Positions 1 through 12,171 of a DNA stretch of 64,000 bases are shown piece after piece. The first letter of the stretch is position 1, and the number at the start of each line of letters is the position of its first letter. This stretch comes from an uncultured Desulfobulbaceae bacterium (GTDB lineage Bacteria; Desulfobacterota; Desulfobulbia; Desulfobulbales; Desulfocapsaceae), in NCBI GenBank assembly GCA_937910875.1, contig CALENA010000189.1, positions 1-64,000 of the forward strand, in the 5' to 3' direction. The position numbers and the translations under genes are program-made. Below the pieces are notes generated by a model that had not been told where the DNA came from, ran no database searches, and saw only the letters and a program-made list of their open reading frames with translations.

Positions 1-407
1 CTGCCTGCGATGCCCACCTCGGGATGTTGTTGTAGAAAGTCGGCAAGTGTTTTAACTGCATGTTTGTGTATAATTGTGTCTGGATTGAGCAGCCAAAAAA
101 AATCTGGGAGATTTGGCGTGGAGATTATTTTCTCAAGGATCTGATTGTTGCCATAGGCAAAGCCGCCATTTTTCTTCAGCGACAGAATGGACGCCCAGGC
201 ACCCCAGTCTTGCTCTTGGATTTGATGTCCAATATGTTCGACAGAGCCATCATTTGAGTTGTTATCTGCAATAATGGCCGAGAGTAAAAGATCCCCATTC
301 TCATTGTTAAATATCGATTCCAGGCAGTTAAGTGTTAGTTCTGCCGTTCTGTAATTAACAATGACGATACAGACTGATAGTTGCTTGTGCGTGTCAGGTT
401 GTTGCAT
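1..407 (-). CDS. family 2 glycosyltransferase, N-terminal part (cut by left edge)
   Basis: Reading the minus strand from an ATG at 407 gives an open frame of 135 codons to the window edge. It begins MQQPDTHKQLSVCIVIVNYR and continues with LNCLESIF, IIADNNSNDGS, NGGFAYGNNQI and FWLLNPDT. These are hallmarks of GT-A fold, family 2 transferases of the rhamnosyltransferase (WbbL-like) group: the VNY strand, the D-N-S-D nucleotide-sugar motif, and the NPD motif in place of a DXD. It probably transfers a sugar to a lipid-linked oligosaccharide at the inner face of the membrane. The start overlaps the end of the upstream ligase gene by 14 bases, which suggests translational coupling. A stop lies three codons upstream in this frame, so the start is well bounded. 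The acceptor sugar cannot be inferred. Confidence 0.85.
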   Translation of the reverse strand, partial: MQQPDTHKQLSVCIVIVNYRTAELTLNCLESIFNNENGDLLLSAIIADNNSNDGSVEHIGHQIQEQDWGAWASILSLKKNGGFAYGNNQILEKIISTPNLPDFFWLLNPDTIIHKHAVKTLADFLQQHPEVGIAG

Positions 408-1734
408 TTCCTTTCATTTGCGTATCATGATTGCTTATGTGCCAGCTGAGGAGTGCCCCTGAGATTACTATATAAATGGGGTTTGTCATCCCATTAATCA
501 GTGAATCTAGCATAAATAAAATGACAACGATGCTCAATGATGCTGGTATCGTTTTGTTGGAGACTGGAATTTCCGCATTCCTTTTGATTGCTCGGAAAAC
601 AAACCAGGGCCCTGCGAGTATAGCTGTCACGAGGGAAGCAATCCCAAGGTATCCTAGGGTGCTGAAGGTGATGAGCCACAAGGCGTCAATCATCTGTATC
701 ATTTGCTGACCAGTTTCTGGATCGATGGGCCAACCTCGGCCGTAACCTCCCCAGCCCAGGAGGGGGCGCTCCAGGGCTTTAATGCTGAACAGATCTTCCT
801 GAAAGAGCCTTATGCCAAAAGAGGCAACGCGATCCGCGTCAAAAAAATGAGATGCTATCATCTCTAAATTGAATGCGCTTATGAGCCCGGTTGAGCGAAG
901 GATAATATATCCAGGAATTGAAAGAAGTAATAAACGCAAAGGAAGCAGCATGCTAAAGGTGTTAAGCATAAAATAACTGCTCACCCCAATGATAAGGGCA
1001 ATCCACCCGCTTGCAGTTTTACAGAGTATTGTGGTTATTGCCAGTCCTGCAACGATAACGGACATGGAAATTCCGTTGATATGAGAGGACTCTTTGCTGC
1101 GCCATAACCAGAAGGCAACAGAGGTTGTTGTAGCCATCCATAAGGCCACCATAATTCCATGTTGCATAAATACGATGGGCCGGAAGCCGCCATATCTTAT
1201 GTGCTGTTCAAAGGAATGTGGAAAAAAACCATAAATCATGTTGGAAAGTTGGGGACTCATCCGTATTTCATAGAGGCATAATGGCATATACAGCAGGCCA
1301 CCAATAACAACTCCCAAGCATAAATCGCGCAGTGTCTCAGTGTTTGTAAAATAGATTCTTCCCGCTAGATAAGGGATCCCCCAGGTGAGAATTTGGGTAA
1401 AGGAAGATGAAAGGCCGTCATAGAGACCCAGTTGGTTTGACATGGATGTGGCAATGGGGCACAAACACCACAGGATCATGGGGAGGTCGTAAAGTCTCCA
1501 ATGGAACGAAGCTGCCTGGCGTTGTCCAGAGAGTCGTCCTGCCAGAAGTAGTCCCACGGCAATGGCAGTGCTTTTTGAATAGATCGGAAGACCCGGCAAG
1601 TCGTAGCCGGTCATGGGTAGAAAGAGCCAACCACCAATAACGGAGAAGAGAACTGCACGGTGAGGTTTGAGTGTGAAGAAGAAGAATATTGAGATGGGGA
1701 TCCACCCGAAAAGCATTAAGGGGATTGTAAGCAT
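394..1734 (-). CDS. O-antigen ligase/polymerase-like membrane protein
   Basis: A 446-residue protein with roughly ten or more hydrophobic segments and a long periplasmic-type loop in the second half, around residues 290-350 (DADRVASFGIRLFQEDLF, LLGWGGYGRGWP). This is the layout of the Wzy/WaaL O-antigen ligase superfamily. Such proteins polymerise or ligate lipid-linked glycans at the periplasmic face. Position inside an exosortase-linked operon, directly after a flippase (15-base gap) and overlapping a glycosyltransferase, supports that role. An AAGGAA ribosome site lies about 7 bases before the ATG. Whether it acts as polymerase (Wzy) or as ligase cannot be decided from sequence alone, so no symbol is given. 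Confidence 0.75.
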   Translation of the reverse strand: MLTIPLMLFGWIPISIFFFFTLKPHRAVLFSVIGGWLFLPMTGYDLPGLPIYSKSTAIAVGLLLAGRLSGQRQAASFHWRLYDLPMILWCLCPIATSMSNQLGLYDGLSSSFTQILTWGIPYLAGRIYFTNTETLRDLCLGVVIGGLLYMPLCLYEIRMSPQLSNMIYGFFPHSFEQHIRYGGFRPIVFMQHGIMVALWMATTTSVAFWLWRSKESSHINGISMSVIVAGLAITTILCKTASGWIALIIGVSSYFMLNTFSMLLPLRLLLLSIPGYIILRSTGLISAFNLEMIASHFFDADRVASFGIRLFQEDLFSIKALERPLLGWGGYGRGWPIDPETGQQMIQMIDALWLITFSTLGYLGIASLVTAILAGPWFVFRAIKRNAEIPVSNKTIPASLSIVVILFMLDSLINGMTNPIYIVISGALLSWHISNHDTQMKGNATT

Positions 1735-1749
1735 TCTGTTTCCTTCTGG

Positions 1750-3111
1750 CTATAGTTGCGAAGAGTATAGATCTGCACCTGGGAGGCCAAGACCGGTCAA
1801 GTGTCTGAAGGAGATGAGGCAGCCTATAACAGCCAGAAGGATAAGCGTTGCATATAAATCTTGTTGTGTGCTTGAAAGCTGCTCTTTTTTGAGCCCGTAT
1901 AGTGTCATGAGATAGGCTGGGACGTCGTTGGTGGTGATAGCGAGTATTGCCCCGAAGTATCCGCCAATTTTGAAAAAAAGAGGCAGGCATATGACCATGT
2001 ATATAAATTTAAGTAAATTGGCCAAGGCGGAAAATTTGGGTTTGCCTATGGCATAAAGGGCCCGGTCGATTGTGCTGTGCAGTAAAAATGGCCATATACC
2101 GAGTGCCAGTAAAGGTAGCATCCATCCAGCCATTTTATATCGGTCATCATACAATGTAATGATGAGTAAATCTCCAAAGCTTGCCATAAGTGCGACAATT
2201 GCGATCAGTGGAAGCAGTAAAAATTTTCTTTTGTCTAAAATATTCCGTCGTAATTCGCAGCGTGTAAGATGTGAGTACTGCGCAATCAGTGGGTAAAGAA
2301 CTTTACTGGATAACTGGGTGGTTATCTGTTTTGGGATTTCTGCAAAGATGATGGCTATATTGTATACGCCAAAGAGGGCAAAGGGGAAAAGTTTGCCTAA
2401 AATAAATTTGTCGGCTTGACTCGCTGAAAACATCATGGCTGTGGAAACGAAAATCCATTTGCCGAAGTTAAACAATTCGCTGGCTGCTGCTTTGTTGAAT
2501 AAGAAACGATTGCGATGTGTTGTGTCGAGAAAATGGCTCCACAATGTCTTGATTGAGCTGGAAATTAGTCCGCCACAGATGAGTGCCCATATGTTCTGGT
2601 ATTGATAGGCAAGCCCAATCATGACGACGAGACCAATGGCTTGGGTCGTTAATTCCATGATGGTTAATTTCCCAAAGCGGAGACTCTTGTTCAGAGTAAA
2701 AATTGATGTAGCATTAAATCCAGCAATGAGGCTACTGAGCCCAATGACGGGAATGATCTTGCTTAAGATGGGTTCTTGGTAGAAGAGTGCCAGGGGGGGG
2801 GCTATCATAAAGGTTAAAAGCCAGATGATGAACCCTCTTATAATTTGTACTGTCCAGGCAGTATTGAGAAAAACAGGGTCTGTGCCGTGTTTGCTCTGGA
2901 TAATTGCGGGGCCTACGCCAACGTCTGAAAAGAGATTGAGCCCGATGATAAAGACCTGTGCCAGGGCCATGACTCCGAAGAGTTCAGGTACCAGGAGCCG
3001 AGTTAAAATCAGATTGCCGGCCAGCCGAGTGAGTTGCGAGAAACCATAGGCCGATATGACGATGGCTGCGCCTTGGTATGCTTTTGTGCCTGACAGGCGT
3101 TTGGTGTCCAC
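1750..3111 (-). CDS. polysaccharide flippase (Wzx/PST family)
   Basis: A 453-residue polytopic protein with about twelve to fourteen predicted membrane segments. The N-terminal region (YGFSQLTRLAGNLILTRLL, then PELFGVMALAQ) matches the first two helices of the polysaccharide transporter branch of the MOP superfamily. These proteins flip undecaprenyl-linked oligosaccharide repeat units across the inner membrane. The frame opens with GTG at 3111, and no strong ribosome site is visible. It lies 34 bases after the WecG-like gene and 15 bases before the ligase-like gene, so it belongs to the same minus-strand transcript. Length is normal for the family (about 430-490 residues). Confidence 0.82.
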   Translation of the reverse strand: MDTKRLSGTKAYQGAAIVISAYGFSQLTRLAGNLILTRLLVPELFGVMALAQVFIIGLNLFSDVGVGPAIIQSKHGTDPVFLNTAWTVQIIRGFIIWLLTFMIAPPLALFYQEPILSKIIPVIGLSSLIAGFNATSIFTLNKSLRFGKLTIMELTTQAIGLVVMIGLAYQYQNIWALICGGLISSSIKTLWSHFLDTTHRNRFLFNKAAASELFNFGKWIFVSTAMMFSASQADKFILGKLFPFALFGVYNIAIIFAEIPKQITTQLSSKVLYPLIAQYSHLTRCELRRNILDKRKFLLLPLIAIVALMASFGDLLIITLYDDRYKMAGWMLPLLALGIWPFLLHSTIDRALYAIGKPKFSALANLLKFIYMVICLPLFFKIGGYFGAILAITTNDVPAYLMTLYGLKKEQLSSTQQDLYATLILLAVIGCLISFRHLTGLGLPGADLYSSQL

Positions 3112-3145
3112 AATAGGTATGAGTCGCCTTGGGTTTGAATGCGGT

Positions 3146-4288
3146 TCAGTGGAGTGAGTTGTGCTTGGGGCCCAGCAGTGTATGAATCTGATGCAGGTTG
3201 TTGTTAATATCCTCGTGGTTGATTGTTCGCCCAGTATGATTTTGGTATTTTTCCAGTATTAACAGCAGGCCCGCGACGGCACCATCTATAAATTCAGTTT
3301 GTTTGTAGCTGAATACTACGTTCTTTTTTGTCGTTGCAAGAGTCATGAGGATCTCTTCCAGCTTGGAATCGTTAGTTCGGCGCAGATTTCTGCCAAAGGA
3401 AACCCGGAATTCTTGTATGTCCTCAGATGATGTAGTTGCTGTGTCGGCAGGACGGATTCTGGTTTGCTTCTCTTGTGACAGGTAGTAGCGCCAGAATGAA
3501 AAACGGGCGATGAGGGTACGGAGAAGAATTAGGCCATCGGAGGCATATCTGACAAAGAGTTGAGGCTCCTGGAGGATACGCCACGCCCATTCCAGACCGA
3601 TTTTTTGTGTGAGCTGAGGAGCTCGACGGACTGTACCTGCGAGAAAATTGATAGTGGCCCCCAAGTGACTGATGATCTTGACCTCAAGTCGATCACGGTT
3701 CCGTTCTATCCATTGTGTACCCTTCTTGGCCCCGAGAGCGACGAGAAGGATATCCGGTTTTGTTTTGTTAATGGCGGCAATAATCGTATCAGTGCTCATT
3801 TCCTCAACAGTGCCGAAGCCTGGATTAAGAGCACCGACAGCATGGAGCCCCCCTTGGTCTTTGTTGATTTGCTTGAGGGCCTGTTCAGCTGCGTCACTTT
3901 CACCGCCAAACAAAAAGATAGAGAGTTTTGTGTCTGCGGTTTTGTCCTGGTGGAGTTCCTGGATCAGGGTTGAGCCGGCAACAGTCTCTGTCATAGGATA
4001 GCCGAGGAGTCTGGCCAGCCACAGGAGTGGCTTGCCGTCCAGGGTCACAATGTCGCTGTTGATGATGGCTGCGCGAAAGGCGGGGTCTTTGAACGACTGG
4101 ACCACCCAGTTGACATTGATGGTGGAAAGGACTGTGTTGTAGGGTAGTTTTGCCTTTTTGTGCAGAAGTTGTTTCGTGCCCTCAAGGGTAAGATTGTCCA
4201 CGGGTAGGCCAAACAGGCACCAGACATCCCGTTGGAGGTCCTGCTTGATCCGATCGTGCTCCGCATTGCAGGCCGGTTCTTTGATCAT
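3146..4288 (-). CDS. WecG/TagA/CpsF glycosyltransferase with STAS-like C-terminal extension
   Basis: Residues about 25-265 match the WecG/TagA/CpsF (GT26) family: FGLPVDNLTLEG, NVNWVVQSFKDPAFRAAI, SDIVTLDGKPLLWLARLLG, FLFGG, LNPGFG, and LLVALGAKKGTQWIERN. These enzymes add the second sugar to an undecaprenyl-diphospho-sugar. The family normally ends near residue 240-260. Here about 100 further residues end in a segment (VSFGRNLRRTNDSKLEEIL to GAVAGLLLILEKYQNHTGR) that resembles a STAS fold, with a helix following an F-IDGAVAGLL stretch. The STAS assignment is inference from pattern only. The gene starts at an ATGA overlap with the upstream sugar transferase, and a GGGGCGG ribosome site precedes it. 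Confidence 0.82.
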   Translation of the reverse strand: MIKEPACNAEHDRIKQDLQRDVWCLFGLPVDNLTLEGTKQLLHKKAKLPYNTVLSTINVNWVVQSFKDPAFRAAIINSDIVTLDGKPLLWLARLLGYPMTETVAGSTLIQELHQDKTADTKLSIFLFGGESDAAEQALKQINKDQGGLHAVGALNPGFGTVEEMSTDTIIAAINKTKPDILLVALGAKKGTQWIERNRDRLEVKIISHLGATINFLAGTVRRAPQLTQKIGLEWAWRILQEPQLFVRYASDGLILLRTLIARFSFWRYYLSQEKQTRIRPADTATTSSEDIQEFRVSFGRNLRRTNDSKLEEILMTLATTKKNVVFSYKQTEFIDGAVAGLLLILEKYQNHTGRTINHEDINNNLHQIHTLLGPKHNSLH

Positions 4289-5697
4289 ACCGCCCCTTTT
4301 GAGAACAAAACCGCCGGTATGGTTTTAAATAGAATTTTCATGTCCAGCCAGAGGGACCAGTGCTCAATATATTCCAGGTCCAACTCAAGCCATTTTGTGA
4401 AAGGAAGATTGCTTCTGCCCGAGATCTGCCAGATACAGGTAAGTCCCGGTTTGACGCTGAAACGTTTGCGCTGGATGCCCTTGTCGAAAAGGTCTACATC
4501 CCGAATGGACATGGGGCGGGGCCCCACCAGACTCATATCACCGGAGATGACATTAAACAGTTGAGGGAGTTCGTCCAGGCTGGTTCTGCGGATGAATTTG
4601 CCTACCCGTGTCACCCGGGGATCATCGGTTATTTTAAAGATCGGGCCTTCTGCTTCGTTGAGGTGTTCAATTTCTTTCAGGCGATCTTCAGCATCATGGT
4701 ACATGGAACGAAATTTGAACATTGGAAAGAGGTGTTTGCGCAGGCCGACCCGTTGCTGGACAAACAGGACTGACCCTGGCGAGTCCAGTCTGATGGCTAT
4801 GGCCGTCAGAGCCATCAGGGGCAGAAACAATGGTGTGGCCAGCAGAATCAGTGAAAGATCAATGATTCGTTTGATGAAAAGTTGGGCATCGTCCTGAGCC
4901 ACCGGCTCCATGGCCAGTAGAGGGGTGTGGCCAACCTGGGTCAAAGTGACTCGGGCGGTCTGGACCCTGAAAAGGTCGGCCATGAAACGGAGTTTGATTC
5001 CCTCTTCTTCACAGGCAAGGGCAATGGGTTCGGCGTCTTGTAGGAGAGAGCGCGGAATGGCAACGATGACCTCGTCAATGACATGATCTTTCAGACAGGC
5101 ACTGATTGTTTCCACCGTACCGATAACAGGTATGCCATTTATGTCGCTACCGACTCGGGTTGGATCCGGGTCTAAATGCCCGACAATGGTGATGCCCCAT
5201 TCACTTTGTTTCAGCAGGTCATGGACGACCTCTTTGGCGCGCTCGCCGGTACCGACAATGAGCAGACGCAGAGCATTGGTATTGTCTCTCGTGGTTTTTT
5301 TGAAATAGGTGAGTGACCAGAGTCGGATAAGAAACAGGCAGATAAATTCGAAGAGGGCAAAGGCCAGGATCACCAAGCGGCTGATGTAGTCAATTTTTAG
5401 AAAAAAGAGAATGCCAAGGAGCAGGCCAAAGGCCAAGCCAAGCGCGCGGAAAATGGCCCAGGCGTATCGCCCTGTTGTCATGTCTCGAGGGCTGTTGTAG
5501 GCACCGCTGTATGACAAGAAGCTGACGATAAACGTCAACTGCAGGGGGACAAGAAAGAGATGTTCGAAGATGTTGATCGGCTTGTCGTTGCGAAAGATAG
5601 TTCCCAGCCATATGGCCAGAAAAAATGCCAAAATGGTCAGGCAGATGTCTAACGTAAAAACGATGCGATCAAGTTCTTTGCTTCTGTTGTCGTACAT
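4285..5697 (-). CDS. undecaprenyl-phosphate sugar phosphotransferase (exopolysaccharide initiating enzyme)
   Basis: This 470-residue protein should transfer a sugar-1-phosphate onto undecaprenyl phosphate, the first membrane step of polysaccharide assembly. Four hydrophobic segments fill residues 1-125. A Rossmann-like domain (LLIVGTGERAKEVVHDL, about residue 145) follows. The catalytic bacterial sugar-transferase domain begins near residue 268 with KRIIDLSLILLATPLFLPL, then VLFVQQRVG, MFKFRSM, RRTSLDELPQLFNV and GDMSLVGPRPM. All conserved blocks are intact, and the length fits the WbaP/EpsE-like polyprenyl glycosylphosphotransferase group. The last four bases are shared with the next gene. 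The sugar (glucose, galactose or other) is not predictable here. Confidence 0.9.
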   Translation of the reverse strand: MYDNRSKELDRIVFTLDICLTILAFFLAIWLGTIFRNDKPINIFEHLFLVPLQLTFIVSFLSYSGAYNSPRDMTTGRYAWAIFRALGLAFGLLLGILFFLKIDYISRLVILAFALFEFICLFLIRLWSLTYFKKTTRDNTNALRLLIVGTGERAKEVVHDLLKQSEWGITIVGHLDPDPTRVGSDINGIPVIGTVETISACLKDHVIDEVIVAIPRSLLQDAEPIALACEEEGIKLRFMADLFRVQTARVTLTQVGHTPLLAMEPVAQDDAQLFIKRIIDLSLILLATPLFLPLMALTAIAIRLDSPGSVLFVQQRVGLRKHLFPMFKFRSMYHDAEDRLKEIEHLNEAEGPIFKITDDPRVTRVGKFIRRTSLDELPQLFNVISGDMSLVGPRPMSIRDVDLFDKGIQRKRFSVKPGLTCIWQISGRSNLPFTKWLELDLEYIEHWSLWLDMKILFKTIPAVLFSKGAV

Positions 5698-5799
5698 GAA
5701 AGAGTGGTTTAGGTGTGTTGCATGGTTAACTTGAAATTCATGACCTTGGGTTTGAGGCTGTCATGTTCTGTCACTCTGTGAGAGAGTGAAAACTGAATC

Positions 5800-6456
5800 T
5801 TATCTGGCGATATTATTTTTTATGAAACCCGTGTAGTGGGGCCAGAATGCCTTGATGAAATCAAGACCGGTCGTTTTGGCCTGATCACGTTCCGTATTGG
5901 AAAAGGGGACTGAGACCCGTACAAAGGCATGCTGCTGATTGTTTTGTCCTAGTTTGTTGAGCAGCGTTGCGATTTTGATTTGGAAAAGGTGGGGTGAGCT
6001 TTTGTGGCCCGCCTGATACCAGTACAAGATCAGCTCTTTTCTTTCTCCAAGGGTTGCGACTAATTCCGCATAATGGAGGGTGTCGTCTCCAATGGTCAGT
6101 TCGTGTATGGTCGGTTTGTCAATGGTCCAGCCCTGGCTTGGAAAACAGACCAGGGGGGAGTGTGCGGCCGTCAGTTTGTCGATGGTGTAATAATGACCGA
6201 TATAGAGGGCTGCCTGTTGTTGTTCTTTGGTGTAATTAGTGAAGACAAAGTCGTCCAGAGCCAGCATTTCGTAAATGCCTTTTTCCAGGGGGACTTCTAT
6301 GCCTGCCCGGTATCCCTCGATGTTTTGCAGGGAATCTTTCAGGGGCAGTCCATTGACGCCGCTGCCCTGGAGCACAGCACTCTTATAGGCAAGAAGGCAG
6401 GTCCCGAGCAGGATCAAGACTAATAAGAGCCACTTGTTATCTTTTTTGTTTCCCAA
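5800..6456 (-). CDS. EpsI-like exosortase-associated protein
   Basis: A 218-residue protein with one N-terminal membrane anchor (KWLLLVLILLGTCLLAYKSA) and an extracytoplasmic domain. It carries VFTNYTKEQQQAALYIGHYY, a CFPSQGW block and the ELILYWYQ strand, which are typical of EpsI domains found beside or fused to exosortases. The cysteine in CFPSQGW is the conserved one. The frame stays open far upstream, but there it reads the exosortase DNA in another frame. The best start is TTG at 6456, preceded at 10 bases by AAGGA and overlapping the exosortase end by 37 bases. EpsI is needed for exopolysaccharide production in some systems, but its biochemistry is not established. Confidence 0.75.
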   Translation of the reverse strand: MGNKKDNKWLLLVLILLGTCLLAYKSAVLQGSGVNGLPLKDSLQNIEGYRAGIEVPLEKGIYEMLALDDFVFTNYTKEQQQAALYIGHYYTIDKLTAAHSPLVCFPSQGWTIDKPTIHELTIGDDTLHYAELVATLGERKELILYWYQAGHKSSPHLFQIKIATLLNKLGQNNQQHAFVRVSVPFSNTERDQAKTTGLDFIKAFWPHYTGFIKNNIAR

Positions 6457-7265
6457 CGTTCCAGAATCCTTTGCAAGAGGAAGAGTATTAACAGGGCGAT
6501 ACCAAAGATGACCAGGCCCATGATGGTGTGTACGGTGCCGGTGGTCCAGTCGAGCCGGAAATAATGAAAGACCAGAACCAGGGTGAGAACGCGAATGACA
6601 TTGACAAGAAAAGCCACCGGAATACTGAGGAGGACCAAGGTGACCTTGGAGAATGTCTTTTGCAGAGTAAAGTAGCCGAAGATCAGGCTCAGGGTAGTAA
6701 TACTGATGATGTATCGCATCCCGCTGCAAGCCTCGATCACCTGGAAGGTCTTGGTTGGGATATGGATAATATTGCCTTCCCTAAAAACGGGTATATTCAG
6801 CAGTTGAATAATGAATCCGCTGGTCTCTGAAACCTTGAGTTGCAGAGGGACGGTAATGGCGGAATAGATCTGGTTGGGGATGGGGATGAGCAGGATCAGC
6901 AGGATGATGGGCATGGCCAGTTTTTTGAGGACATCGAGGCCGAAAAAATAGACCAGGATGCTGAGCAGAGTTGTGATCAGGGCAAGGCTGTTCAGGGAAG
7001 TACTGATCAGCAGGAGACCAGCGAAGTAGATAATGCTTGCCAGGGCTACAAGAGGGGCGCAGAGGGAGATATTGCCTTGTGTGATGGGGAGCTCGTCGCG
7101 TTTGAGCCAGACCATGTAAAAGATAATGGGGATGGTCAGGAAGGCGTGAGAGTACTCTTCCAAGTGGTACCAGAGGATGGACAACTCCCGCAGGGCCGGG
7201 ATGTAAGCGATGACAAACAATCCCAGGGTGAGAGCGAGTGGGATGTGTATGTTTAATTTTTTCAT
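6420..7265 (-). CDS. exosortase (archaeo/exosortase family transpeptidase)
   Basis: A 281-residue protein made almost wholly of membrane helices (about eight). The catalytic triad of the family is visible: Cys180 in EACSGMRY, Arg225 in NVIRV and His246 in VHTIMG. Exosortases cleave PEP-CTERM-like tails from secreted proteins and are usually encoded with exopolysaccharide genes, as here. It is the first gene of the minus-strand operon and overlaps the EpsI-like gene. No obvious Shine-Dalgarno sequence precedes the ATG. No protein with a PEP-CTERM-type tail is encoded in this window, so its substrates must lie elsewhere. The subfamily letter cannot be assigned by eye. Confidence 0.9.
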   Translation of the reverse strand: MKKLNIHIPLALTLGLFVIAYIPALRELSILWYHLEEYSHAFLTIPIIFYMVWLKRDELPITQGNISLCAPLVALASIIYFAGLLLISTSLNSLALITTLLSILVYFFGLDVLKKLAMPIILLILLIPIPNQIYSAITVPLQLKVSETSGFIIQLLNIPVFREGNIIHIPTKTFQVIEACSGMRYIISITTLSLIFGYFTLQKTFSKVTLVLLSIPVAFLVNVIRVLTLVLVFHYFRLDWTTGTVHTIMGLVIFGIALLILFLLQRILERWETKKITSGSY

Positions 7266-7597
7266 AGTGGGACGTGATTTCTGGGTCTTATTGAACTTCT
7301 TTGCTAATTCTTATCATAATTCAGGAGCTTCTGAAAGGTGAATGGTCGAAAAAGATCGCTTGGGTTGCATTTAGTGGTTTCTGAGGAGATGCCTGTTATT
7401 TGGGCTGCGTTGGCAGAAAAAGAAGATTGCGACCTTGATTATCAAATCTCAGGGAATATAATTAAACACAGAAAGAATGGTCTTCCATAAAGAGTGTCCC
7501 GTGGCTCTTCTGGCGGCCAGGTCTTTTGCCGTGTGTGCCTTTGGGTGCTCAGGGGCGATGGCGTTGGCCATGGCCGAAACTCAAACGGAGGAACTGT
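7266..7597. other. 332-bp divergent intergenic region
   Basis: This spacer separates the minus-strand exosortase operon from the plus-strand hibernation-factor gene. It holds the plus-strand promoter listed at 7435-7462 and a long untranslated leader ending in a GGAGG ribosome site. The open frame that continues upstream of 7598 has a biased, shadow-like composition and is not considered coding. I see no convincing promoter for the exosortase operon. Confidence 0.5.
7435..7462 (+). promoter_or_regulatory. sigma-70-type promoter for the hpf/cold-shock gene
   Basis: TTGATT at 7435-7440 and a perfect TATAAT at 7457-7462 are separated by 16 bases. Transcription would start near 7470, about 128 bases before the ATG at 7598, leaving a sizeable leader. 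The call is from consensus only. Confidence 0.6.
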
Positions 7598-8131
7598 ATG
7601 GAATTAAAGGTTGAAGCCCGGAATGTGGAATTGCGAAAAGGCTGGCAGGAAAAGATCGAGGAAGAGAGAGAAAAGTTGGTTCGCCATTATGCCAATTTTG
7701 TCCTTCATCTCCGGGTCTCCATCGAGGGGACGACACATCACAAGGAAGGGGGGTTTGAGGTGAAACTGGTTGCTTCAGTGCCCAGTGATACGGTTGTGGT
7801 TTCACGAAAAGGAGAAAGTGTTCGGCCTCTTCTGGTGGAGGCCTTTGATGTGCTGGCGCTGCAGCTTAAGGAACAGCAGCGCAAAAAAAGAAAGGCCCAG
7901 AAGTTGGGTGGTGCCGTGGTTGATACCAGCAATACGGGAGTGATCCGCAAGCTCTCGCCTTTTGAGTCGTACGGTTTTATCGGTACCCTGGATCAGCGTG
8001 AGATCTATTTTCACGAGAATGCCCTCAAGGATGTGGCCATGGAGCAGCTGGCCGAGGGCGATGAGGTGACCTATGGCGAGACCGTTGGTGATAATGGTCC
8101 GCAGGCCTCCTGGGTGCGTGTTGCCCGGTAG
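7598..8131 (+). CDS. HPF/RaiA-type ribosome hibernation domain fused to a cold-shock domain
   Basis: A 177-residue protein. Residues 1-100 have the S30AE/HPF pattern (MELKVEARNVELRKGWQEKI, then FVLHLRVSIEG, FEVKLVASVPSDTVVVSRKGESV, LLVEAFDVLALQLK), the fold that binds the 30S subunit in idle ribosomes. A basic linker (KKRKAQK) leads to a cold-shock domain at about residues 115-177: GVIRKLSPFESYGFIGT, then REIYFHENAL and GDEVTYGE. The domain keeps the RNP1-like G-F-I and RNP2-like Y-F-H nucleic-acid-binding aromatics. The start is set by GGAGG seven bases before the ATG. It stands alone between a promoter and a terminator. A role in stress or stationary-phase ribosome handling is inferred from the domains. 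Confidence 0.85.
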   Translation: MELKVEARNVELRKGWQEKIEEEREKLVRHYANFVLHLRVSIEGTTHHKEGGFEVKLVASVPSDTVVVSRKGESVRPLLVEAFDVLALQLKEQQRKKRKAQKLGGAVVDTSNTGVIRKLSPFESYGFIGTLDQREIYFHENALKDVAMEQLAEGDEVTYGETVGDNGPQASWVRVAR

Positions 8132-8161: not shown

Positions 8162-8213
8162 AAAAAGGGCCCGATTTGGCGTAGTGCTGAGTCGGGCCCT
8201 TTTTTGTTTTTTT
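8162..8213 (+). terminator. intrinsic terminator after the hpf/cold-shock gene
   Basis: A perfect 13-bp stem pairs 8162-8174 with 8192-8204, its core being GGGCCCGA against TCGGGCCC. A T-rich run continues to 8213. It sits 30 bases after the stop and can also work in reverse because of the A-run on the other arm. Confidence 0.9.
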
Positions 8214-8315: not shown

Positions 8316-9416
8316 ATGACCTTGCAGCAGCAGGACCTTGGGGCTGAGTATTTCCGCCTCGAGCGCGATCAGATCATGGCCAGGATTGCGGCCCGTAAAG
8401 AGGAGTTGGCTGACCGTCTTCTTATCCTCTGCCATCATTACCAGCAGCAGGATCTGTTTCAGTTTGCCGATCTGACCGGGGACTCGCTCAAGCTCTCTCG
8501 CGAGGCCGCAGCCATACAGGATCGGGAGTTCATTGTCTTCTGCGGCGTCCATTTCATGGCCGAGGCGGCCGATATCCTGGCCCAGCCGCACCAGAAGGTG
8601 ATCTTGCCGCATCTGGATGCCGGTTGTCCCATGGCCGATATGGCCTCGGTCGGCGCCGTGGTCCGGGCCTATCGTGATCTGCTGACGGCGCAGGTGGTGG
8701 CCGATGAGGCCGCCCTGGTGCCGGCGACCTATGTCAATTCCTCTGCCGCGATCAAGGCCTTTGTCGGTGAACGGGGTGGCTCGGTCTGCACCTCATCCAA
8801 TGCCGAAAAGATCCTTGCCTGGGCCCTGGGTCGGGGCGAGAAGGTCTTTTTCTTTCCTGATCAGCACCTGGGCCGGAACTCGGCCATGGCCCTGGGTATC
8901 CCAGAGGACGAGATCCTCCTCTGGCGTCGCGGCGAACTCCTGGGCGGCAATAGTGTGGCGGACCTGCGCCGGGCCAGAATCCTGCTCTGGGACGGGTATT
9001 GTGAAGTGCACATGAAGTTTCTACCCGATCAGGTCAGGCGCTGGCGGCTTGAAGAGCCGGATGTCCGGATCATTGTCCATCCCGAATGCGCGCATGATGT
9101 CCTGAAACTGGCCGATGAATATGGCTCCACCGAGGCGATCATCAAGGCGGTCAGCCAGTCGCCTGTGGGCAGCAAGTGGGCCGTGGGCACCGAGGTCAAT
9201 CTTGTAGAACGTCTCCATCGCACCTATCGGGACAGGCAGGTCCATCTCCTGTCCTCTTCGGCCTGTGAGTGCACGACCATGGATTGCAACCAGCCGGTCA
9301 ATCTCCTCTGGGTCCTTGATAACCTGGCCGCCGGGCGGGTGGTCAACCAGATTACGGTCGAGCCGGAAATCGCCCGGCAGGCTGCCAAATCTCTCGAGCA
9401 GATGCTCGCCATCTGA
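8316..9416 (+). CDS. nadA: quinolinate synthase
   Basis: NadA condenses iminoaspartate with dihydroxyacetone phosphate to quinolinate for NAD synthesis, using an oxygen-sensitive [4Fe-4S] cluster. The 366-residue protein shows the family blocks ILCHHYQQQDLFQFADLTGDS, FCGVHFMAEAADIL, YVNSSAAIKA, VCTSSNA, FFPDQHLG and HPEC. Likely cluster ligands are Cys158 (CTSSNA), Cys258 (HPEC) and Cys319 (ECTTM). It is on the long side (many NadA are 300-350 residues). An AGGGAG ribosome site lies seven bases before the ATG. polA follows after 13 bases, so the two may share a transcript. nadB and nadC are not in the window. Confidence 0.93.
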   Translation: MTLQQQDLGAEYFRLERDQIMARIAARKEELADRLLILCHHYQQQDLFQFADLTGDSLKLSREAAAIQDREFIVFCGVHFMAEAADILAQPHQKVILPHLDAGCPMADMASVGAVVRAYRDLLTAQVVADEAALVPATYVNSSAAIKAFVGERGGSVCTSSNAEKILAWALGRGEKVFFFPDQHLGRNSAMALGIPEDEILLWRRGELLGGNSVADLRRARILLWDGYCEVHMKFLPDQVRRWRLEEPDVRIIVHPECAHDVLKLADEYGSTEAIIKAVSQSPVGSKWAVGTEVNLVERLHRTYRDRQVHLLSSSACECTTMDCNQPVNLLWVLDNLAAGRVVNQITVEPEIARQAAKSLEQMLAI

Positions 9417-9429
9417 GGCGGAACCACCC

Positions 9430-12171
9430 ATGAAAGAAGTCTATCTGATTGATGGAAACGCCTACATCTACCGGGCCTATCACGCCATCCGGCCGCTGAT
9501 CAACAGCCATGGCCTGGCCACCCACGCCATCTTTGGTTTTGCCTCCATCCTGCGCCGCATTCTGCGCGAGAAAGCGCCCAGCTACCTGGCCGTGGCCTTT
9601 GACAGTCGCGGCCCGGTCTTCCGGCATCAGCTCTATCCTGAGTATAAGGCCAATCGTCCGCCCATGCCTGAGGATCTGGTCTGTCAGATTCCCTTTATCA
9701 GGGAGCTGGTGGCGGCCCATGGCATTCTGACCCTGGAAGAGGTCGGGCTTGAGGCCGATGATCTCCTGGCCGCGGCCGCTAAATGTCTGGCGGCCCAGGG
9801 ATATCGGGTGGTGATCGTCTCCGGTGACAAAGACCTGGCCCAGTTGGTCAGTGATCAGGTCTCGGTCTGGGAGCCCATGCGTGATGTCCAGCTTGATGTG
9901 GCAGGGGTGGGCGCCAAATACGGGGTCAGTCCGGACCAGCTTCTCGACTATTTCGCCCTGATCGGTGACAGCTCGGATAATGTTCCCGGGGTCCCGGGGA
10001 TTGGTCCCAAGACCGCGGCCCGGCTGATCAGTGAGCACGGCAGCCTCGAAGAGGTGTACGAGCAGCTCTCGGCCATGAAAAAATCCAAGCTCAAGGAGTC
10101 GCTTGGGGACAACCGGGAGAAGGCCTTTCTCTCCCGTGACCTGATTCGCCTGAAAAACGATTGTGCGGTCCCTGAGGCCCTGGCCAGCTATGTTCTGCCG
10201 CAGCCGGATGAGGACCGCTTGCAGGCCCTGTATCGGGAGCTTGAGTTCAACAGTCTGGTCACTGACCAGGTGGCCCGCGACATTCAAGATGCGGCCAGGC
10301 CGGTGCCCACGGCCGGGTTTGTCCTGGTGCAGAGCGAAGAGCAGTTGGCGGAGCTTCTTGTGGCGGCAGGTCAGGCAGAGCTGCTGGTCCTGGATACCGA
10401 GACCACTTCCCTGGATACCAGTCGGGCCCAGCTGGTCGGGATCTCGTTGTGTGTTGATCTGGATCGGGCCTGGTATATCCCTCTGGGCCATGTTGTGGCG
10501 GAGGGCCGGTCCGATGAGGCGGGAGCGCCGGTGCAGGCGAAGATGTCGAATGAGTCGGCTGTCCTGCAGCCAGGCCAGCTGCCCCGGGATCTGGTGATGG
10601 CCAGGTTGCGGCCTCTCCTTGAATCACCGGCCCTGGCCAAGCTTGGCCATAATATCAAGTATGATTATCTTGTCCTGCGGGCCACGACCGGGATTTGTCT
10701 GGCCGGTCCGCTCTATGACACCATGGTGGCCAGCCATCTCATCGATCCCCTGGCCCGTTCGCGTAAACTCGATGACCTCTGTTTTGAACAGGGACTGAGA
10801 CTCACCGCTTTTACTGAGGTGGTGGATGATCCCAAGGAAGATGGCTGTTTTGCCCGCGTTCCCCTGGAGATGGCCCGGGACTACAGCTGTGAGGATGTTT
10901 ATGGTGCCCTTGTCCTGTGGCGGGCCTTTGCCCCTCGTCTGGATGAGTTGGGCCTGACTCGTCTCTTCTACGAGGTCGAGACCCCGGTCCTGACGATTCT
11001 GGCCGAGATGGAACACCTCGGAATCACGGTCTCACCCGAGATCCTGGCCGAGCTGGCCGAGGAGTTCCAGGCCAGGCTCAAGATCCTGGAACAGGAGATC
11101 TATCTTCTGGCTGGCCATGAGTTCAATATCCAGTCGCCCAAGCAGCTGGGAGTCATTCTCTTTGATGAGCTTGGCCTCCCCCATGGCAAAAAGATCAAGA
11201 CTGGCTATTCCACTAATGCCGCCGTCCTGGAAAAACTGGCCCCCAAACATGAACTGCCGGCCCGGATCATCGCCTATCGCAATATGGCCAAACTCCTCTC
11301 GACCTATGTCGAGAAACTGCCTGGCCTGATTGATCCGATTTCGGGCCGGGTTCATACCTCGTTCAACCAGACCGTCACCGCTACTGGCCGCCTGTCGTCG
11401 AGCAACCCCAACCTCCAGAACATCCCCATTCGCAGCGAGGATGGAGGTCGTATCCGTCAGGCCTTTGTCCCTGGTGATGGGTTGATCTTCCTGTCCGCTG
11501 ATTATTCCCAGATCGATCTCCGGGTCCTGGCCCATTATTCCCGGGACGCGGCCCTGCTGAAGGCCTTTCGTGACAATGAAGATGTCCATAGCCGGACTGC
11601 GGCCGAGCTCTTCAATGTCTCACCTCTCCTGATCACCTCGGAGATGCGGCGGGTGGCCAAGAGTATCAATTTCGGCATTGTCTACGGGATGAGCAGTTTT
11701 GGTCTGGCAGGTCAGCTCAATATCGGCCGGAATGAGGCGCAGCGTTTTATTGACCGCTATTTTCAGCTCTACAGCGGGGTCAAGACCTTTATGGAAGAGA
11801 TCGTGGCCCAGGCCCGCAGAGACGGCTATGTGACCACCCTGCTGGGTCGGCGACGGCCCCTGCTTGATATTGCAGGCAAGAACAGAAACCAGCGCGAGTT
11901 TGCTGAGCGGATGGCGATCAATACTCCGATCCAGGGGACGGCTGCCGATATTATCAAGCTGGCCATGATCCGGGTGGATGAGCGTTTGACAACAGAGGGG
12001 CTGAGCGGTCGTCTGCTCCTGCAGATCCATGACGAGCTGGTCCTGGAATTGCCCGAGGCCGAGCTGGCCCGGACGCGTGAGGTGGTGGTCCAGGCCATGG
12101 AGCATGCCCTGGAACTGGCCGTGCCACTGGTGGTCAACTGCGAAGTGGGGACGAGTCTTGCCAAAGGGTGA
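9430..12171 (+). CDS. polA: DNA polymerase I
   Basis: A 913-residue three-domain Pol I for Okazaki-fragment processing and repair. The 5'-nuclease domain starts at residue 1 (IDGNAYIYRAYHAIRPL) and keeps the acidic blocks EADDLL and SGDKDLAQLV and the helix-hairpin-helix DNVPGVPGIGPKTA. The 3'-5' exonuclease domain looks active: DTETTSLD near residue 322, HNIKYDYLVL, and DYSCED. Polymerase motifs A (ADYSQIDLR, about residue 691), B (RRVAKSINFGIVYG) and C (QIHDELVLE, about residue 867) are intact. The open frame extends further upstream inside nadA, but the ATG at 9430 matches the conserved N-terminus and follows GAGG. Confidence 0.95.
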   Translation: MKEVYLIDGNAYIYRAYHAIRPLINSHGLATHAIFGFASILRRILREKAPSYLAVAFDSRGPVFRHQLYPEYKANRPPMPEDLVCQIPFIRELVAAHGILTLEEVGLEADDLLAAAAKCLAAQGYRVVIVSGDKDLAQLVSDQVSVWEPMRDVQLDVAGVGAKYGVSPDQLLDYFALIGDSSDNVPGVPGIGPKTAARLISEHGSLEEVYEQLSAMKKSKLKESLGDNREKAFLSRDLIRLKNDCAVPEALASYVLPQPDEDRLQALYRELEFNSLVTDQVARDIQDAARPVPTAGFVLVQSEEQLAELLVAAGQAELLVLDTETTSLDTSRAQLVGISLCVDLDRAWYIPLGHVVAEGRSDEAGAPVQAKMSNESAVLQPGQLPRDLVMARLRPLLESPALAKLGHNIKYDYLVLRATTGICLAGPLYDTMVASHLIDPLARSRKLDDLCFEQGLRLTAFTEVVDDPKEDGCFARVPLEMARDYSCEDVYGALVLWRAFAPRLDELGLTRLFYEVETPVLTILAEMEHLGITVSPEILAELAEEFQARLKILEQEIYLLAGHEFNIQSPKQLGVILFDELGLPHGKKIKTGYSTNAAVLEKLAPKHELPARIIAYRNMAKLLSTYVEKLPGLIDPISGRVHTSFNQTVTATGRLSSSNPNLQNIPIRSEDGGRIRQAFVPGDGLIFLSADYSQIDLRVLAHYSRDAALLKAFRDNEDVHSRTAAELFNVSPLLITSEMRRVAKSINFGIVYGMSSFGLAGQLNIGRNEAQRFIDRYFQLYSGVKTFMEEIVAQARRDGYVTTLLGRRRPLLDIAGKNRNQREFAERMAINTPIQGTAADIIKLAMIRVDERLTTEGLSGRLLLQIHDELVLELPEAELARTREVVVQAMEHALELAVPLVVNCEVGTSLAKG

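Follow-up and report, generated by a model that had tools for sequence, protein, structure and literature searches.

The window analysed here, i.e. a stretch of 64,000 nucleotides from contig CALENA010000189.1 of an uncultured Desulfobulbaceae bacterium, carries in its first part a gene for a protein with an N-terminal HPF/RaiA domain and a C-terminal cold-shock domain (CSD), together with a set of expression signals (table 1). An initial annotation had credited the gene with its own promoter, a long leader and a terminator, and all three are indeed present, the leader being about 130 nt long; what had escaped that annotation is that the leader itself is a covarying RNA structure. Downstream of the gene, at positions 8316-12171, lie two genes that we take, by sequence recognition, to be nadA and polA. 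Matches to nadA were found in 35 and matches to polA in 48 of the 80 loci fetched from relatives, i.e. the neighbourhood is conserved despite the terminator. On the other side (394-7265, minus strand) lies a divergently oriented cluster of an exopolysaccharide type, in which exosortase-like, sugar transferase, WecG-like, flippase and ligase-like open reading frames were named by eye; three of them were compared with the relatives' loci and gave no match at E 1e-8.

Table 1. Positions of the features of the HPFcold gene and its flanks in the window.
Feature	Position	Strand	Basis or remark
Promoter (TTGATT, 16 nt, TATAAT)	7435..7462	+	10/12 consensus bases
Structured leader RNA (covariance model R1)	7517..7600	+	52.8 bits, E 1.8e-12 in own genome; not an independent score, the window being one of the 44 rows behind R1
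Hairpin P2 (GUGCC-UUUG-GGUGC core)	7533..7550	+	position from alignment A3
Hairpin P3 (5 pairs, AUGGC-GUUG-GCCAU)	7558..7571	+	read from the sequence and A3
Shine-Dalgarno sequence (GGAGG)	7587..7591	+	read from the sequence
HPFcold protein, lineage A	7598..8131	+	177 aa ORF, uninterrupted
HPF/RaiA (S30AE) domain	7607..7888	+	Pfam PF02482, residues 4-97
Cold-shock domain (CSD), OB fold	7934..8119	+	Pfam PF00313, residues 113-174
Intrinsic terminator (20 pairs, then T run)	8162..8204	+	

Both domains are recognized by Pfam above the gathering cut-offs, Ribosomal_S30AE (PF02482) with 33.9 bits (E 5.4e-8, cut-off 23.7) and CSD (PF00313) with 39.8 bits (E 4.2e-10, cut-off 27). An AlphaFold2 model computed with 69 homologues as input (mean pLDDT 83.1) displays a beta-alpha-beta-beta-beta-alpha topology at residues 2-103 and five strands at residues 112-175, connected by a short linker (104-109) that is the sole low-confidence stretch; the pTM of 0.53 leaves the mutual placement of the two domains unpredicted. 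When compared with solved structures using VIA-align 2, residues 1-102 match RaiA (8rd8_D; Z 15.1, rmsd 1.7, 101 aligned) and residues 109-176 match CspA (1mjc; Z 12.2, rmsd 1.3, 66 aligned), and Foldseek agrees with this result for both halves of the model. The combination of an HPF/RaiA domain and a CspA-like domain in one protein is thus confirmed, and the C-terminal part is a real OB fold. Pfam gives CSD and S30AE alone, with no match to Ribosom_S30AE_C (PF16321), which places the protein outside HPFlong; the CSD stands where HPFlong has its dimerization domain, as had been suggested. The 100S-forming HPFlong (PF02482 plus PF16321) is similar in consisting of an HPF domain and a C-terminal module, but that module is PF16321 rather than an OB fold. 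No NCBIfam model reached its cut-off with the protein: TIGR00741 (HPF/YfiA equivalog) gave 19.4 bits against a cut-off of 40.9, and the CspA/CspE/CspC models gave 15.8-21.7 bits against cut-offs of 120-137, so that it does not qualify as a free Csp either.

The HPF domain has diverged considerably, with 8-21% identity to the solved HPF/RaiA chains in the VIA-align 2 results. In an alignment of 81 rows, comprising the window and the 80 fetched orthologous loci, residues E6, N9, K14, W16, R39, K91 and K96 of this domain are nevertheless invariant, and so are Y125, F127, F138 and H139 of the CSD, with position 137 being Y or F. The possibility that a frameshift in this strain has fused two genes can be rejected, since all 80 loci carry the fusion, which is conserved across an order; 79 of them end at a stop codon after 176-184 aa, and the remaining one (L102) is cut by the end of its contig.

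The domain combination is not new, having been described under the name HPFcold by Stuart et al. (Nat Commun, 1 June 2026, PMC13392368), who reported cryo-EM structures (PDB 9T0Z, 9TZE) of the 183 aa representative from Coxiella burnetii, CBU_0020. According to the available text of that paper, the sigma-54-modulation (HPF) domain of CBU_0020 sits in the tRNA cleft of the 30S subunit, and its CSD lies in the mRNA exit channel, with the anti-Shine-Dalgarno sequence ACCUC from the 3' end of 16S rRNA wound around it and with uS7 and bS21 holding it in place. The same text reports HPFcold from the proteobacterial classes and other phyla, with Thermodesulfobacteriota among the tree labels, and refers to Chan et al. 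(bioRxiv 2025.11.04.686544) for a pan-genome study of hibernation factors in which HPFcold figures as a fusion product. Among PDB sequences, a phmmer search with the window protein found one full-length match, precisely this protein (9t0z_9 / 9tze; residues 3-173, E 9e-11), and the family profile recovered it over residues 3-174 with E 4.2e-17, far better than the best HPF without a CSD (9sda_9, E 0.098). The structure 9T0Z is not among the results of the fold search, for which the underlying copy of the PDB ends in April 2026. The window protein and CBU_0020 have little sequence in common; they share the two Pfam domains and their order, the length class, an alignment over the full length and CSD columns that are absent from free Csps. 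They differ in the CSD motifs, which are YGFI, YFHE and W172 in the window protein and FGFI, YFNA and an arginine at the last of these sites in the Coxiella protein.

The window protein thus belongs to the published HPFcold kind. What looks new beyond the printed record is the near-universal presence of its lineage (lineage A, see below) in Desulfobulbales, the lack of the CSD in five genera and the covarying leader RNA. Neither HPFcold in Desulfobulbales nor the leader was the subject of any paper found in our literature search, which did not extend to bioRxiv; the survey by Chan et al., as cited in the available text of PMC13392368, may already cover the split into lineages or the losses of the CSD.

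The nearest named relatives belong to the Desulfobulbales (Candidatus Desulfatifera sulfidica, 88%; Desulfocapsa, Desulfofustis, Desulfopila and Desulfobulbus), and we infer from them the name of the order as well as that of the family of the window (f1), Desulfocapsaceae. Full-length HPFcold is encoded by at least 167 of the order's 193 genomes, as judged by profile A2 at E below 1e-60, a threshold stronger than every HPF-only match observed. A renewed search of the remaining 26 genomes revealed nine with the HPF part alone, 15 with CSD-type matches only (one of them a fragment at a contig edge), one (G121) with both an interrupted copy and an intact but diverged one, and one with nothing. 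PF02482 by itself matches only 151 of the 193 genomes, and most of the 42 genomes without such a match at E <= 0.001 do carry HPFcold according to A2; the Pfam profile therefore misses members. HPFlong is almost absent from the order, its C-terminal domain PF16321 being found in a single genome. In the genome of the source organism itself (92.1% complete) the window protein is the only PF02482 match and PF16321 is lacking, while four CSD matches were obtained, including two strong ones to free Csps of 68-69 aa and one below the cut-off. In a broader sample of the phylum (297 genomes), matches at E <= 1e-15 were obtained in 39, of which 11, the own genome among them, are labelled as belonging to the own or the same order. 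Across an entire order of environmental sulfur bacteria, HPFcold, whose structure came first from one intracellular pathogen, thus appears to serve as the standard hibernation factor in place of HPFlong.

Translation of the 30 loci with the strongest PF02482 scores uncovered a second kind of HPFcold, here called lineage B, which accounts for 27 of them and is characterized by a length of about 183-190 aa and the motif YFHRNS; the other three comprise a B-like HPF domain without a CSD (L034), a PF16321 protein (L008) and a locus without a match (L009). A tree of CSD sequences, built by a quick method from 75 columns, with 23 of 43 inner branches left open and a long end branch for the Coxiella sequence, separates 15 free Csps from every HPFcold CSD by a branch with 100% support, and another branch with the same support separates lineage B and the Coxiella CSD from lineage A, to which the window protein belongs. 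The difference from free Csps is apparent in individual alignment columns, too. All 15 free Csps compared have Trp at column 118 and Phe at column 119, in contrast to K/R and L/V/I, respectively, in most of the HPFcold rows aligned here; lineage A, lineage B and the Coxiella protein are alike in having no Trp at 118 and L/V/I at 119. Columns 137-138 read Y/F-F in HPFcold CSDs versus F-V in free Csps, and E161 and Q169, present in most HPFcold rows, likewise set these apart from the 15 free Csps. W172 is confined to lineage A (40/40 in a thinned set), and F127 is lost in most lineage B rows. The RNA-facing core of the CSD (YGF, YFH) is conserved in lineage A. The earlier view that the aromatic RNA-binding motifs are kept is therefore correct for Y125, F127, F138 and H139, but not for the Trp and Phe columns 118 and 119, which are replaced in most rows.

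In nine of the 193 genomes, representing five genera (one each in families f1, f4, f5, f12 and f14), the lineage-A protein stops after the HPF domain, and no open reading frame for a CSD was found in the fetched loci of these genomes. The CSD is thus not indispensable. It may be viewed as a detachable module, and its absence from five genera offers a natural experiment on what it adds to the protein. A separate ORF of 77 aa in another genome (G258:C459:14219-14431) matches the CSD part of HPFcold at 60 bits, a score above the roughly 45 bits that the free Csps encountered here reach at most, and may be an HPFcold CSD that was freed or split.

We consider it likely that the gene specifies an HPFcold-type factor for the hibernation of 70S ribosomes, with a CSD that caps the 3' end of 16S rRNA and a leader that acts as a cis-acting element. 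The two-domain protein probably keeps idle ribosomes parked while covering the end at which mRNA docks. By analogy with the Coxiella relative, the HPF domain would occupy the tRNA cleft of the 30S subunit and block both tRNA and mRNA, and the CSD would fill the mRNA exit channel, with the anti-Shine-Dalgarno sequence of the 16S rRNA 3' end wrapped around it; a single protein could in this way both silence the ribosome and protect its 3' end from RNases, without the formation of 100S dimers. The canonical target (CCTCC) is present in the 16S rRNA 3' end, GGATCACCTCCTTT, at three 16S loci of two relatives, the assembly of the source organism itself having given no 16S match.

The initial annotation had envisaged a different role for the CSD, namely the tethering of mRNA or free single-stranded RNA to idle ribosomes. 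CSDs in general do bind single-stranded RNA, as is known for the family, and the core aromatic residues are kept. However, the CSD of the only solved member binds the anti-Shine-Dalgarno sequence and fills the mRNA exit channel (9T0Z, as described in the available text of PMC13392368), the residues typical of free Csps at 118 and 119 are replaced, and the genome already encodes two free CspA-like proteins. Capture of mRNA or other single-stranded RNA instead of 16S rRNA thus seems quite unlikely to us, and in the light of the Coxiella structure the lineage-A CSD most likely caps the 16S rRNA 3' end. Still less probable is that the protein has ceased to be a hibernation factor, its diverged HPF domain and CSD now serving as a free RNA-binding regulator. 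The TIGR00741 score below the cut-off and the low identity to solved HPF/RaiA chains might be read in this sense, but the HPF domain retains its seven invariant residues in all 81 rows, the protein is near-universal in the order, and the genome offers no other PF02482 match and no HPFlong (with the proviso that PF02482 can miss members).

The upstream regions of the orthologues share several signals. TATAAT occurs 60-230 nt upstream of the gene in 35 of 50 loci (L038-L088 plus the window), compared with a mean of 3.5 and a maximum of 8 in 50 Markov re-draws, and in only six of 28 among L089-L117; the promoter rows displayed have CTTGATTATCA...GGAATATAAT or close variants in common. A Shine-Dalgarno-like word precedes the ATG in all 78 leaders tested. 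A sigma-54 promoter (TGGCMC-N5-TTGC) was sought in 78 upstream regions of 220 nt and found in none.

Between promoter and Shine-Dalgarno sequence, comparative analysis supports a structured RNA with two hairpins in the relatives. RNAalifold applied to 44 leaders (alignment A3, rows chosen by eye from the 81) predicts 11 pairs, 10 of them with compensatory changes. Hairpin P2 exhibits changes on both sides in five of its six outer pairs, with 86.6% of cells paired across the 44 rows, and hairpin P3 in all seven pairs, with 95.7% of cells paired; the P3 of the window itself is short and out of register in A3. For a structure of 14 pairs, 91.3% of cells can pair, as opposed to at most 51.1% when slid, and 133 double-change cells were observed versus 35.7 in shuffles. 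The loci left out of A3 are L040, L043, L044, L057, L058, L067, L073, L084 and L089-L117; when the eight below L089 were scored against R1, the covariance model built from the 44 rows, five reached 30.7-46.7 bits and three 20.5-25.1 bits. With 51 rows taken without picking by eye (those of L038-L088 with room, plus the window), RNAalifold keeps P3, with seven pairs, all of them double-changed, and 95.4% of cells paired, whereas P2 was not found in this set; the 29 rows of L089-L117 yielded no consensus structure. Control stretches from the same loci (positions -240 to -155 of the same genes, the 85 nt before nadA in 18 and 28 rows, and the first 90 coding nt) yielded no pairs. Folding of single sequences over positions -92 to -12 gave a mean z of -1.74 (n=80), with 30 of 80 below -2 and the window at -2.95, which is weaker evidence than the covariation; the best structure of the window leader folded alone differs from the consensus.

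Searching the 193 whole genomes with R1 returned 45 matches at E <= 3.2e-5, not all of them independent because some genomes supplied rows of the model. Every one of the 45 directly precedes HPFcold and has its orientation, and 44 extend to the start codon, the one from G101 stopping 38 nt short; the best match elsewhere (E 9.9e-4) is at about chance level for 193 genomes. Within f1, 44 of 52 genomes have a strong match. The others comprise G149 and G169, which lack HPFcold, G165 and G176, which have the CSD-less form, G042, G109 and G160, whose weak matches extend to the start codon, and G180 without a match. Outside f1, a single genome (G127) of 141 matches at E <= 3.2e-5, so that the R1 type of leader is an element at the level of the family; other families have hairpins of their own before the gene, as judged by eye.

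Known RNA families do not account for this leader. Searched against Rfam 15, positions 7250-7700 of the window gave chance matches below the gathering thresholds only, and ten loci compared with Rfam at gathering gave no match in the leader. The raiA motif RNA, or ModT (RF03072), is likewise a structured RNA that often lies near a hibernation-factor gene; as described in the available text of PMC11706538, it has eight paired regions and pseudoknots and occurs in Bacillota and Actinomycetota. It is larger than the window leader and does not match it even at E <= 5. The cspA thermoregulator (RF01766) resembles the leader in being long, structured and attached to a CSD gene, but gives no match to the HPFcold leader. 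An RF01766 match of 92.1 bits was encountered in a Desulfobulbaceae relative (L048:9958-10379), on the other strand and some 5 kb from the leader. A leader RNA goes unmentioned for the Coxiella HPFcold in the available text of PMC13392368.

The leader is most likely a cis-acting element that tunes the translation or stability of the mRNA, conceivably during slow growth or stress, and as such a concrete candidate for a regulatory element of ribosome hibernation outside model species. A clear on/off switch by sequestration of the Shine-Dalgarno sequence is not indicated, since the probability that this sequence is unpaired exceeds 0.5 in 23 of 44 leaders (0.55 in the window). One conceivable mechanism is repression by CsrA bridging ANGGA sites, as reported for hibernation genes of E. 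coli, which are said to be under CsrA control (PMC10746276). A.GGA precedes the Shine-Dalgarno sequence in 26 of 44 leaders against 10.9 expected (a statistic that ignores kinship), and CsrA is matched in 33 of 60 genomes of the family. We nevertheless regard this as unlikely, for CsrA gave no match in the own genome or in the other genome of the genus, both of which carry the leader, nor in further leader-bearing genomes (e.g. G128 and G147), although drafts may miss it.

It is likewise doubtful that HPFcold of lineage A regulates itself as ribosomal proteins do, its CSD having the two hairpins of its own leader as a second target beside the 16S rRNA 3' end; if true, synthesis of the hibernation factor would track the number of uncapped ribosomes. 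A hint in favour of this is that the f1 genomes with a CSD-less protein (G165 and G176) are also without the leader at this gene, but the CSD-less L124 from another family keeps the hairpin typical of its family, as judged by eye. Mimicry of the anti-Shine-Dalgarno sequence in the leader was considered and rejected, as neither ACCTC nor CCTCC occurs in any of the 44 leaders; the lack of ACCTC is a further hint against autogenous binding by the CSD. Finally, operators in general can take the form of inverted repeats located downstream of a promoter, but a DNA site for a repressor is a most improbable explanation here, given that the half-site sequence is not conserved while the pairs covary, that the hairpin loops differ in length, and that the repeats precede the Shine-Dalgarno sequence, away from the promoter.

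The close relatives L040, L043 and L044 have an extra hairpin between P3 and the Shine-Dalgarno sequence, within the 50 nt before the HPFcold start codon, and the near-complete genome G042 displays two weak R1 matches in tandem before the gene (G042:C1:2172881-2173091).
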